Shown here piece by piece: positions 30,524 to 42,069 of a stretch of DNA of 64,000 bases. Origin of the DNA: Rhodohalobacter mucosus (GTDB lineage: Bacteria; Bacteroidota; Rhodothermia; Balneolales; Balneolaceae); NCBI RefSeq assembly GCF_003150675.1, contig NZ_QGGB01000004.1, forward strand, positions 1 through 64,000. The letters run 5' to 3'. The notes under the pieces are model-generated. The model made no database searches, was not told the origin of the DNA, and saw only the letters and a list, made by a program, of their open reading frames with translations. Position numbers and translations under genes: made by a program. Each line of letters starts with the position of its first letter. The stretch's first letter is position 1.

Positions 30524-30595
30524 TCCTCGGTAGCTCAGTGGCAGAGCAGTTGACTGTTAATCAATTGGTCGTAGGTTCGAATCCTACCCGGGGAG
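30524..30595 (+). tRNA. tRNA-Asn (GTT)
   Basis: Full cloverleaf: acceptor TCCTCGG paired with CCGGGGA (one G-T), D-arm GCTCAGTGGCAGAGC, anticodon loop CTGTTAA with anticodon GTT, T-arm ending GGTTCGAATCC. The discriminator is G30595; CCA is not encoded. Confidence 0.95.
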
Positions 30596-30600
30596 CTTCT

Positions 30601-30991: not shown

Positions 30992-31231
30992 CTATATCTT
31001 TGGCGCCCAGCTGGTGCAAAGCATCCCTTTTGTGGCAATGTCGGGGTGTACGCAGTCTTCCCGCTTAAATCGTGCACACGTACCGCAGTCAATGGACTTG
31101 TTCAGGTCGCCTTCACTGCTGAACTGATCGCAGGTGTATTTTTCGTTTACCTTCACTTCATGTGTGTTACAAAAGTTGGCGGCTGTAAATGAGGTGCACT
31201 GTCCACAGCTGCTTGCTATTCTGATAGGCAT
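30992..31231 (-). CDS. Small duplicated Cys/His protein, probable metal-binding
   Basis: 79 residues with two similar halves: C9-x2-C12-x8-C21-x2-H24-x9-C34-x2-F37 and C49-x2-C52-x7-C60-x-H62-x9-C72-x2-W75. Eight cysteines and two histidines in this spacing suggest one Zn or Fe site per half. No signal peptide, so cytoplasmic. I do not recognise a named family. It is divergent from a 39-residue ORF, and the palindrome between them (31303-31321) also occurs before an iron-binding lipoprotein gene, which hints at metal-dependent regulation. Confidence 0.75.
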   Translation of the reverse strand: MPIRIASSCGQCTSFTAANFCNTHEVKVNEKYTCDQFSSEGDLNKSIDCGTCARFKREDCVHPDIATKGMLCTSWAPKI

Positions 31232-31285
31232 GGTTCAAAGATTTGATTCGTATTTTTTACCATAATACCAATCGCCGGATTAAAA

Positions 31286-31342
31286 TAAATATATAGAGAT
31301 ACATTTAGAGATAGTCTAAATAGAATTACATTAATAACTTTG
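31286..31342. promoter_or_regulatory. Divergent promoter region around a 19-bp palindromic operator
   Basis: The palindrome ATTTAGA-GATAG-TCTAAAT sits at 31303-31321. On the plus strand TAACTTTG (31335-31342) matches the Bacteroidota -10 consensus. On the minus strand TATATTTA (31286-31293) matches 7 of 8 positions. The palindrome falls in the -33 area of both, as a shared repressor site would. The same 7-5-7 arms occur at 41771-41789. Confidence 0.6.
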
Positions 31343-31360
31343 GTCCAGTGTGTATGTAAA

Positions 31361-31480
31361 ATGAAAACCAGACTGCTACGGGGCTGCCGCTGGTTAATGA
31401 TCAAATGGCTGTACGTGAAGAAAACCGCTATGCCCCCCAACGCAGTTGATCCGGAATTTTATGAGTTGCAGGGCTTATAG
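31361..31480 (+). CDS. 39-residue small protein, unknown
   Basis: ATG at 31361, stop TAG at 31478. The product begins MKTRLLRGCRWLMIKWLYVK, strongly basic and partly hydrophobic, and ends PPNAVDPEFYELQGL. It starts 19 bp downstream of a good TAACTTTG -10 element. No family recognised. Its position opposite the Cys-rich gene across a shared operator-like palindrome supports it being a real gene, but this is inference. Confidence 0.45.
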   Translation: MKTRLLRGCRWLMIKWLYVKKTAMPPNAVDPEFYELQGL

Positions 31481-31679: not shown

Positions 31680-32552
31680 ATGGACCTTTATGAAGCACAA
31701 ATTTCCAATCCTGACCTGTTCCGCCAGTTTTCGTTGAAAGACACGCTTTTCCTTCATTACTCATGTCCTCAGCGCGAAAAGGTACTGCAGCTCTACTCAA
31801 AGTACATTCAGTTTAATTTTACACTGAGCGGCAAACGTATTCTTAAGCAGGGAAATCATCGTTGGGTTGCCACACCTGATAATGGCCTGATTGTCAAAAA
31901 ATGTGCTTTCATGCAGGAGCTGCCCGACGATTACCAAGGGTGGGATGTGCTTATATTTTACCTTCGAGATCACTACCTGAGATCGTTATTTGAAGAATTC
32001 AGGCCTCATTTATCATTGGAAGATTTACCGGCCCCGAACAAAATTATGTTTGAGCCGTTTGCAATTGATGACCACATCAAGAATAGCTATCAAAGTTTCA
32101 TTCCATACATTCTGGAAAATAAAACGCTTCCTGACAACGTCTTTGAAAACAAATTCAAGGAATTGCTTTTCAACATTTTATCCCACCCGGATAACAAACA
32201 CATTCTGGCCTACATCCAAAGCATTGCAGAAAATTATCAATCGGCCATCTGGGAGGTTATGGAGGCAAATTACATGTACAACCTGAAAATCCGGGACTTC
32301 GCTACCATAGCCAATCGCAGCTTATCCACGTTTAAGAGGGAATTTAAAGAACATTACAATACCACGCCCGGGAAGTGGCTTACGGAAAGAAGGTTACAGA
32401 GGGCAGAAAGCATGTTGAAATCCGGAAATAAATCCGTTGGTGATATAGCCTTTGATTGCGGGTTTAAAAATACGTCGCATTTCAGCAGGGTGTTCAGGGA
32501 ACAGTATGGCCTCTCTCCTTCCGGTTATCAGAAAAAGTGGTCCGATAAGTAA
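31680..32552 (+). CDS. AraC-family transcriptional regulator
   Basis: 290 residues. The C-terminal ~100 residues form the double helix-turn-helix: LKIRDFATIANRSLSTFKRE and SVGDIAFDCGFKNTSHFSRV with the closing LSPSGYQ. The N-terminal ~170 residues resemble the ExsA/Bacteroidota AraC sensor type (CAFMQELPDDYQGWDVLIFY) rather than a sugar cupin. It may control the following genes (DUF4242 regulator, NTF2-like lipoprotein, FAD oxidase). A long inverted repeat CCTGTAA...TTACAGG (32583-32617) follows it, a possible operator for the next gene. Confidence 0.9.
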   Translation: MDLYEAQISNPDLFRQFSLKDTLFLHYSCPQREKVLQLYSKYIQFNFTLSGKRILKQGNHRWVATPDNGLIVKKCAFMQELPDDYQGWDVLIFYLRDHYLRSLFEEFRPHLSLEDLPAPNKIMFEPFAIDDHIKNSYQSFIPYILENKTLPDNVFENKFKELLFNILSHPDNKHILAYIQSIAENYQSAIWEVMEANYMYNLKIRDFATIANRSLSTFKREFKEHYNTTPGKWLTERRLQRAESMLKSGNKSVGDIAFDCGFKNTSHFSRVFREQYGLSPSGYQKKWSDK

Positions 32553-32707: not shown

Positions 32708-33820
32708 ATGCCTTTATACATGGATTGTCACGATACGCCCGGAATTAAAATTCAGGAAGCCGAGAAAGCACATCTGAAAGACCTGGCAGTTCAGGAAAAA
32801 TTTGACGTAAAATACCTGGCATATTGGGTTAATGAAGAGAGTGGCAAGGTTTTTTGCTTGATGAAGGCCCCAAACAAAGAAGCCATTCGTAAGACTCATC
32901 TGCTGGCTAATGGGATAGAAACGTGCAACATAGTTGAAGTTGAGGGAGGCCTTTACTCAGCATTTATGGGAAAAGACCTGAGAGATAAAAACGACTTAGT
33001 TATTGATGAAAATGGAACACCGGATGGTGGGTATCGATTTATCCTGAACCTGGATATCATCGCTGTAACCCGGTTGTCCGGGTTTATCGATTTTGATGAA
33101 TTAAAATTACCCCGGAAACCGCTTGAAGCTGCAGAGCGACTCATTTTAAAAAACAATGGTAACGTTATAAACCAATTGTCCTATGATCGGGTCATCGCTG
33201 TTTTTAAAACCCCGGAAAGCTGTCTTCTTTGCGCAAAAGAGATTCAGGAGGAATTTCTCTCCCATCAAAATCAGTATCCTCCCAACGAATGGAATTTCAG
33301 GTTCACCATGGGATTGTGTATCGGAGAACCGGTTACTTCTATGGATGACCGGATATTTCAAAAAGCACTCAACCAAAGTATGTGGTATTGTAAAATTGCT
33401 GAAAATGGAAAAATTGTACTACCGGTTGAATTTCAGGAAATAAGTGTATTCTGCAGAACAGAAATGGATGTTCCTGATATCACCATAATCGACAAGTCTG
33501 ATCAGGAGTTTATTGAGCATTTGTTTGAGCTTATTAGCATCAATATTTCTAAAGACAATTTTACCATTGATAAATTGAGTAAAGAGATGCGACTGAGCAG
33601 AGCTCAACTGTACAGGAAAATAAACTCTATGTCTAACACCTCCCCGGTTCAATTTATCAGGGATATCAGGCTTAGAAATGCACTGAACCTGATTAAAGAG
33701 AGAAAATTATCGATCTCGGAAATTGCGTATGAGTTGGGCTTTTCAAATCCATCGTATTTCTCCAAGTGCTTCAAAGAAAAGTTTGGCATCTCACCGTCCA
33801 GAATAAAGGTTGAAGTTTAG
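32708..33820 (+). CDS. DUF4242 - cyclase-like - AraC HTH regulator
   Basis: 370 residues. N-terminus (~1-85) is a DUF4242 (SCO4226-like nickel-binding) domain: MPLYMDCHDTPG and YWVNEESGKVFCLMKAP. The middle (~100-245) follows the pattern of class III nucleotide cyclases: LDIIAVTRLSGF, LILKNNGNVI, YDRVIAVFKTPESCLLCAKEI and FRFTMGLCIGEPV, but the metal aspartates and the purine-site residues are not evident. The C-terminus (~270-370) is a full AraC helix-turn-helix with LSISEIAYELGFSNPSYFSKCF. It is probably a transcription factor sensing a metal or small ligand. This three-part arrangement is unusual. Confidence 0.85.
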   Translation: MPLYMDCHDTPGIKIQEAEKAHLKDLAVQEKFDVKYLAYWVNEESGKVFCLMKAPNKEAIRKTHLLANGIETCNIVEVEGGLYSAFMGKDLRDKNDLVIDENGTPDGGYRFILNLDIIAVTRLSGFIDFDELKLPRKPLEAAERLILKNNGNVINQLSYDRVIAVFKTPESCLLCAKEIQEEFLSHQNQYPPNEWNFRFTMGLCIGEPVTSMDDRIFQKALNQSMWYCKIAENGKIVLPVEFQEISVFCRTEMDVPDITIIDKSDQEFIEHLFELISINISKDNFTIDKLSKEMRLSRAQLYRKINSMSNTSPVQFIRDIRLRNALNLIKERKLSISEIAYELGFSNPSYFSKCFKEKFGISPSRIKVEV

Positions 33821-40726: not shown

Positions 40727-41740
40727 TTATCTCCACCCTGCCCGGTCCATCAAACGAATGGCTGCGGGATTATTTTCGCCATAGTATGTTACATTGATTG
40801 CATCGCTTTCATAATCCCCGAATTCGCCCAGTACACCCGGCAGCTCCACAGAGTCGAGGATAGGGAATTCATTATTCGCAACGGCAAAGATCATTTGCGC
40901 CTCTTCGGTTGCTAAATATTCCAGGAATCTGACGGCGTTCTCCATATTGGGAGAGTTCACGGCGATGCCTGCACCGCTGATATTGACGTGCGCTCCGCCG
41001 TATTCAGCCGGAGGGAAATACATGCTAACCTGTTCAGCCACTTCCTGGTCTTCCGTATCTTCCGACTGCATCAGCCTGGCCAGGTAATAGTGATTAACAA
41101 CCGTAATGTCACACAAGCCCGCTGCAACAGCACGGATCTGATCGGTATCGCCGCCCTGCGGGTCTCGTGCAAAATTATTCACCAGTCCGCGTGCCCACTC
41201 TTCCGTGGCTTCTTCTCCCCGGCTTTCGATGAGCGATGCAACCAGCGATTGATTGTATATATTATTTGATGAGCGAATGCAGATACGTCCTTCCCATTCA
41301 GGCTCCGCAAGCTGCCAGTATCCCTGCAGCTCTTCGGGGTTCACCGCATCTCGATTGTACACAATTCCGCGTACACGCTCAGACAGGCCTACCCAGTACC
41401 CGTCCTCGTCCCGCATCTCGGCTGGAATCCGTTCATTCAGCGTTTCTGAACCGTGAGGTTGAAGCACATCCGCTTCCTTGGCTCTCCAGAGCCGCCCAGC
41501 GTCCACGGTAATGACGACGTCTGCCGGACTGTTTACACCTTCATTACGGATTCTTTCAATCAGTTCATCGCTCGTTCCTTCAATGAGGTTCACGGTTATG
41601 CCGGTCTGCTCCGTAAAATTGTCGTATAGCTCCGTATCGGTATCGTAATGGCGTGATGAGTAGATATTAACCTCTTCCTGGCCGGTACAGTTCATCAGAA
41701 AGAGAGATGTCAAAAACAGATATATCAGCTTTTTAAGCAT
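40727..41740 (-). CDS. Fe(3+) ABC transporter substrate-binding lipoprotein (FbpA/FutA type)
   Basis: 337 residues. Lipoprotein signal with lipobox LFLMNC (about C18). The mature start VNIYSSRHYDTDTELY is the FutA/FbpA pattern, with an early tyrosine/histidine ligand pair; INHYYLARL-like V-N-H-Y-Y-L-A-R-L carries the two adjacent tyrosines that bind ferric iron. GTSDELIERI and DVVITVDAGRLWRA fit the family. No permease or ATPase gene adjoins it, so the rest of the transporter is elsewhere. The palindrome ATTTAGA-N5-TCTAAAT lies 31 bp before the start, a likely operator for iron control. Confidence 0.93.
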   Translation of the reverse strand: MLKKLIYLFLTSLFLMNCTGQEEVNIYSSRHYDTDTELYDNFTEQTGITVNLIEGTSDELIERIRNEGVNSPADVVITVDAGRLWRAKEADVLQPHGSETLNERIPAEMRDEDGYWVGLSERVRGIVYNRDAVNPEELQGYWQLAEPEWEGRICIRSSNNIYNQSLVASLIESRGEEATEEWARGLVNNFARDPQGGDTDQIRAVAAGLCDITVVNHYYLARLMQSEDTEDQEVAEQVSMYFPPAEYGGAHVNISGAGIAVNSPNMENAVRFLEYLATEEAQMIFAVANNEFPILDSVELPGVLGEFGDYESDAINVTYYGENNPAAIRLMDRAGWR

Positions 41741-42069
41741 TGATTTTATTTTCTTTCAATTTGGGATTTAATTTAGACCCATTCTAAATAAAATCTGCCT
41801 CAGAATCAACGCTGAAAATTTTCAGATTGCATAAGGGAATTGCCTGGCCCGGTGAACAATAATGAGCAGTAACTCTCTGTGTCGCAGTGGAAATCAGAAT
41901 CACTTGCTGAAGAAGCAGATACTATTCCTGATGCAGTAACGAGCCTCAACCAATCATGAACGCAAAGAAAAACAGTCCGGATAGAACATCCGCCATGGGA
42001 ATGCTCTTCCGGAACTGATTCTTTGTCAACACCCTGAATCGGTGCGTAAACTTGGTTTAAAGCTGCATA
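41741..42069. other. Intergenic region carrying the second palindromic operator
   Basis: 330 bp between the iron-binding lipoprotein gene and the EF-G paralog, both leftward. Besides the palindrome at 41771-41789 no gene, repeat or clear terminator is seen. Confidence 0.5.
41771..41789. promoter_or_regulatory. 19-bp palindromic operator-like site
   Basis: ATTTAGA-CCCAT-TCTAAAT, 31-49 bp upstream of the iron-binding lipoprotein start. Both 7-base arms are identical to those at 31303-31321, while the 5-base centre differs, as expected for a dimeric repressor site. A DtxR- or Fur-type regulator is a reasonable guess; none is encoded in the window. Confidence 0.6.

Follow-up and report, generated by a model that had tools for sequence, protein, structure and literature searches.

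A 79-residue, cysteine-rich protein, encoded on the minus strand at positions 30992–31231 of the window (the whole 64,000-nucleotide stretch of Rhodohalobacter mucosus DNA analyzed here), is, on sequence comparison, the founding member of a hitherto undescribed small-protein family of Bacteroidota and their relatives. We propose that the gene is repressed by Fur and that its product lies in the cytosol and binds metal at two Cys4 sites, with Fe-S clusters as the likeliest occupants; it would serve iron release or electron transfer during iron starvation, a reading to which we assign a probability of roughly 45%. This would make an unannotated family a likely component of the iron-starvation regulon of Bacteroidota and relatives. 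Among the papers listed in literature searches on the Fur box and on iron limitation in Bacteroidota, no title or opening abstract line describes the family, and its members may be hidden among the hypothetical proteins of transcriptome tables.

The 79-residue reading frame is conserved across family members and is therefore a real gene, as had been predicted. Identity to the window protein is 58-59% for two Balneolaceae homologues and 30-53% for the 40 other distinct members. In an alignment of 45 loci (43 distinct sequences, taking in 33 of the 65 matches from family f28, mostly the strongest), eight cysteines are kept at every locus, at residues 9, 12, 21 and 34 and at residues 49, 52, 60 and 72, and form two modules with the pattern CX2C-X7/8-C-X11/12-C-X2-[FWY]; Pro63 and Ala66 are likewise invariant in 45/45. 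The original prediction had described two copies of a C-x2-C-x7/8-C-x1/2-H-x9-C motif, of which the two modules and their cysteines stand but the histidines do not: His24 and His62 vary across the family and are replaced by Asn in many members, so the Cys/His reading was dropped and the candidate sites are Cys4. Profile and sequence searches of Pfam, NCBIfam and the PDB returned no significant match for the family, in agreement with the earlier view that the protein belongs to no known family; the PDB search yielded two serine proteases (E 0.27 and 0.49), which were taken as chance. Judged by eye, the protein lacks a hydrophobic N-terminus and is probably cytosolic.

The gene had been predicted to form one half of a divergent pair, sharing its operator with a translated 39-codon gene on the plus strand (31361–31480) and flanked by -10 elements on both sides. 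A TAnnTTTG element does lie on the plus strand at 31335, 14 bp past the box, as such a pair would have it, yet elements of this type show no excess in front of the window's genes (1 versus 2.4 in shuffles), and a sigma-70 scan likewise found one site versus 2.4 in shuffles, so the claim of flanking -10 elements was not borne out. The 39-codon frame exists, as the ATG-started part of a 46-aa frame, but when the stretch that holds it is shuffled with its dinucleotide composition kept, 30% of the shuffles contain an ATG-started ORF of at least 39 codons on the plus strand. Its only credible relative in 92 genomes of its own family is its own copy (best other match, E 0.02), and the ORF lists at the two closest homologue loci hold no counterpart. 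The frame looks like a chance occurrence and was judged not to be a gene; the divergent pair was dropped on these grounds, and we regard it as very improbable. Our model would instead place a single iron-starvation gene at this locus.

About 70 nt before the start of the 79-residue gene lies a Fur-type operator, ATTTAGAGATAGTCTAAAT (31303–31321, assigned to no strand), an inverted repeat with perfect 7-nt arms and a 5-nt spacer (ATTTAGA-N5-TCTAAAT). The palindrome that had been predicted here is real: its 17-nt core has four exact copies in the 3.9-Mb genome and a reversed control pattern has none, while the 19-mer with up to two mismatches finds 24 genome sites versus 11 control sites. With at most one mismatch there are seven genome sites, each no more than about 160 bp upstream of an ORF and together distributed over six promoters. 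Their targets, assigned to families from Pfam and NCBIfam matches, are a TonB receptor, a solute-binding protein (40727–41740), a DUF4856 lipoprotein, a multihaem cytochrome c, a succinate dehydrogenase cytochrome/flavoprotein pair and the 79-residue protein; the DUF4856 gene is preceded by two boxes, spaced 49 bp apart. On these assignments, the six targets look like genes of uptake or of haem/Fe-S respiration plus the 79-residue gene. At the eight inspected of the 17 two-mismatch sites, no clear iron gene was recognized. Near-perfect copies of the operator stand before the multihaem cytochrome gene (L131, G000:C3:86943) and the succinate dehydrogenase genes (L132, G000:C6:180838), hinting that the regulator may govern iron-rich respiratory complexes too; the operon of the box-bearing multihaem cytochrome c resembles alternative complex III.

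Within the window, the operator arms recur exactly once more (41771–41789, no strand), 31 nt before the minus-strand gene 40727–41740, which encodes a protein resembling solute-binding lipoproteins (Pfam SBP_bac_6, E 2e-18). The predicted co-regulation with an iron-binding lipoprotein holds insofar as this solute-binding gene carries the operator; with its NCBIfam scores below the cut-off, iron is a candidate substrate. What survives of the suggested undescribed metal-response module is a Cys-rich protein whose gene shares a metal-type operator with uptake-like genes; the gene pair does not. Two adjoining AraC-type regulators are encoded at 31680–32552 and 32708–33820, and the latter carries an N-terminal SCO4226-like domain (nickel-responsive type) in an unusual fusion.

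The TTTAGA/TCTAAA half-sites recall DtxR-type boxes, and the genome encodes one DtxR-type regulator (profile match), as would be expected if the operator were read by a DtxR-type protein responding to manganese or iron, with the rest of our model unchanged. The genome also encodes one FUR protein (profile match, E 9.4e-28), and the operator arms exactly match sites shifted by purified Riemerella anatipestifer Fur (PMC5609570), both of which speak against a DtxR-type reader and make it, in our estimate, distinctly improbable. We infer that Fur reads the box. The predicted Riemerella Fur box is ATTTAGAATTATTCTAAAT, and promoters picked from the list were bound by purified Fur (PMC5609570); all 14 arm bases of the window operator equal those of this box. 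A later Riemerella paper quotes a different, E. coli-type Fur box (PMC7976709), but we gave more weight to the former because it derives from a table of actual sites. The match suggests that the range of the Riemerella-type Fur box extends to a genome of the Balneolaceae.

The original prediction was staked in part on conservation of the palindrome upstream of homologues of the Cys-rich protein. In the two Balneolaceae relatives, the operator is found at the same distance with one arm base changed. A Fur-box matrix built solely from 11 published Riemerella boxes was scanned over the 150 bp before 43 distinct homologues and 166 neighboring control ORFs; 33 of the 43 homologues score at or above the 95th percentile of the controls and 10 score below it, and 38 are at or above the 90th percentile (Mann-Whitney p 2e-19, a value that overstates independence since the homologues are related). 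Conservation extends to most of the homologues, and Fur control of the 79-residue gene is a well-supported prediction. Simple patterns place distal and proximal Fur-like elements 30-31 bp apart in 16/32 promoters of family f28 (for example L063, L069 and L085), and in some f28 promoters the proximal element is close to a TAnnTTTG element, which occurs in 12/32 of the f28 homologue promoters versus 2.2 in shuffles. A large dyad spanning the two f28 boxes, seen by eye, was dropped: exact arms of at least 7 nt were present in 5/32 promoters, against 8.5% expected from shuffles.

The gene is sporadic within the Balneolaceae, its own family. Among 92 genomes of the Balneolaceae, three hold a convincing gene (E <1e-29), namely R. 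mucosus and the relatives G081 and G082 (MAG contigs DEBM01000006.1 and PBJO01000008.1); 18 further listed matches (E 0.007 to 0.8) were counted as noise, and the three include none of the 27 other genomes of the same genus. A wider search with a profile from a 5-member alignment (E up to 0.001) matched 7 of 394 genomes in a phylum-wide sample, two of these Balneolaceae, 7 of 196 genomes of family f36, which includes Aureibacter, and 65 of 397 genomes of family f28, probably the Flavobacteriaceae, where the weakest six matches cover the first module only and six of the 65 hold a stop. The sole plasmid matches were two Persicobacteraceae records (39% and 32% identity) on replicons of 1.6 Mb and 0.6 Mb, and one f36 locus (L080 of G829) encodes a protein identical to that of a Persicobacteraceae plasmid record. 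A phage origin was considered and dropped, as viral contigs and phage records gave no match. A tRNA-Asn (GUU) gene lies near the 79-residue gene, at about 30524–30596 of the window, and likewise in both Balneolaceae relatives (L040 and L041), with side and distance relative to the gene differing among the three loci. The sporadic occurrence may mean that the gene was acquired at a tRNA site or was lost repeatedly.

The genomic neighborhoods of homologues were compared in 20 regions of about 12 kb each. Seven contain an imelysin-HTTM-TonB cluster, six of those with DUF4856; PepSY_TM proteins, which we take to be reductase-like, occur in the regions of G602 and G888, and a periplasmic binding protein occurs in that of G406. 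The other 10 of the 20 regions are without any iron marker, although in one of them (G517) a DUF4856 gene is found 5.4 kb away. Control regions of the same genomes had iron markers in 0/20 cases versus 10/20 of the test regions, a comparison biased by the choice of the markers from the test regions themselves. As a less biased measure, of 30 gene-bearing f28 genomes picked from the 65 with a match, 19 encode DUF4856, within 8 kb of the gene in 13 of those 19. DUF4856 is weakly more common with the gene than without it (19/30 versus 11/30, p 0.07), the gene-free genomes having been picked by handle and 13 of the 30 taken as gene-free from their absence among the listed f28 matches. An IMP dehydrogenase gene is a conserved neighbor in 11/20 regions (L091-L103), with no evident link to iron. 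No glycyl radical enzyme gene was seen among the scanned neighbors.

In G888, the homologue sits between a FUR gene and a PepSY_TM/DUF4374/TonB cluster. This arrangement, together with the eight cysteines and the Fur-type box, would also suit other ways of handling iron or clusters, in which the protein might buffer iron, provide a scaffold for Fe-S clusters or, as a sensor, adjust the activity of Fur. However, a FUR gene adjoins the homologue in only 1/20 regions, and profile scans revealed no similarity to known scaffold families; we consider such roles unlikely.

Zinc ribbons and rubredoxins have a second CX2C knuckle. Each module of the 79-residue family has one CX2C and two single cysteines rather than two CX2C knuckles, and this CX2C-Xn-C-Xn-C spacing without a second CX2C is why two [4Fe-4S] clusters are favored here as the cofactor. 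The corresponding cluster motif of HiPIP and HPIP_like proteins, CX2CXnCXnC, is present twice at 45/45 loci. Profile tests for membership fell short: HPIP_like (PF18524) matched 1/43 members (E 2.6), PF01355 was absent from the 25 families listed in the Pfam search, and the likeness to HiPIP in hhalign was no better than that of permutations with the cysteines held fixed, being reached by 8/100 and 5/100 of them. The similarity between the two modules was likewise reached by 6/100 of such permutations. Both HiPIP membership and internal duplication were accordingly dropped as claims. An AlphaFold2 model computed from three sequences had a pLDDT of 35.6 and was unusable.

The weak Pfam matches of the family lean toward zinc fingers, mostly RING-type (Prok-RING_2, 16/43) and FYVE_2 (7/43), and no Fe-S profile matched a family member significantly. 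These observations would fit a protein whose two Cys4 sites bind a zinc ion each and whose part in the iron-starvation response is that of a small adaptor or regulator rather than a redox protein. Yet the zinc-finger matches are all insignificant (best E 0.011), and the module spacing departs from the two-knuckle arrangement; we consider this zinc model unlikely. The synthesis of an Fe-S protein during iron shortage costs iron, which we count against the Fe-S model.

Under the Fe-S model, Fe-loaded Fur would occupy the 19-bp box at 31303–31321 when iron is sufficient and block transcription; under iron scarcity, the 79-residue protein would be produced along with the products of the other box-bearing genes, as the box and its targets suggest. 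The protein would remain in the cytosol and, given its eight invariant cysteines, would bind metal at the two Cys4 modules, their spacing favoring a pair of [4Fe-4S] clusters, each in a small HiPIP-like module of the kind found in the 4-hydroxyphenylacetate decarboxylase (HPAD) gamma subunit. It might then pass on electrons with which iron is released from ferritin stores or from ferric complexes taken up by the cell, much as Bfd does in Pseudomonas. The identity of the cofactor and the electron-transfer job are speculative. The clues to a Bfd-like job are that Bfd frees bacterioferritin iron and that a standalone Bfd is absent from 60/60 f28 genomes (30 with the gene and 30 without), in which PF04324 was found only in frames of 838-1210 aa. 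An opposite occurrence with Bfd, also considered, was not seen, since the standalone protein is absent alike from genomes with and without the gene. As a tentative and more doubtful extension, Bacteroidota may possess a tandem-cluster carrier of about 8 kDa, with two [4Fe-4S] clusters and no sequence kinship to Bfd, FhuF or known ferredoxins, which would be derepressed through Fur, reduce stored or imported ferric iron and replace the missing standalone Bfd. The 60 genomes checked raise the question of how ferric iron from stores or from import is reduced in bacteria that lack a standalone Bfd.

Four known systems offer points of comparison. Classical HiPIP (PF01355) resembles the window family in its CX2CXnCXnC followed by X2-aromatic, but the window family consists of two short tandem modules and shows no significant profile or profile-profile match to it. 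In HPAD, a 9.5-kDa subunit holds two [4Fe-4S] clusters and accessory subunits carry CX2CXnCXnC (PMC12358834); these gamma and HiPIP-like accessory subunits share with the window family a size of about 80 residues, the same spacing and two four-Cys or similar cluster modules. They differ in serving anaerobic glycyl radical enzymes, and the window family has no significant profile match to them. Bfd delivers the electrons that release iron from bacterioferritin (PMC7760384) and is a small Cys-rich cytosolic protein tied to iron shortage, as the window protein is predicted to be; we propose a similar job for the latter. In contrast to Bfd, the window protein has its eight cysteines in another arrangement, and its Pfam matches include no Fer2_BFD (PF04324) at E up to 5.

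The regulatory side is most closely paralleled in Riemerella anatipestifer, which belongs to another bacterial class; we recognized no protein of the 79-residue family in its Fur study (PMC5609570). The Riemerella box has the same 19-bp length and 5-nt spacer as the window box, in addition to the same arm bases. The Riemerella Fur table also includes a cluster of TonB, vitamin K carboxylase, imelysin and hypothetical genes, for which Table 5 of that study gives no box (PMC5609570), and this cluster resembles the one that stands beside the 79-residue homologues in 7/20 regions.
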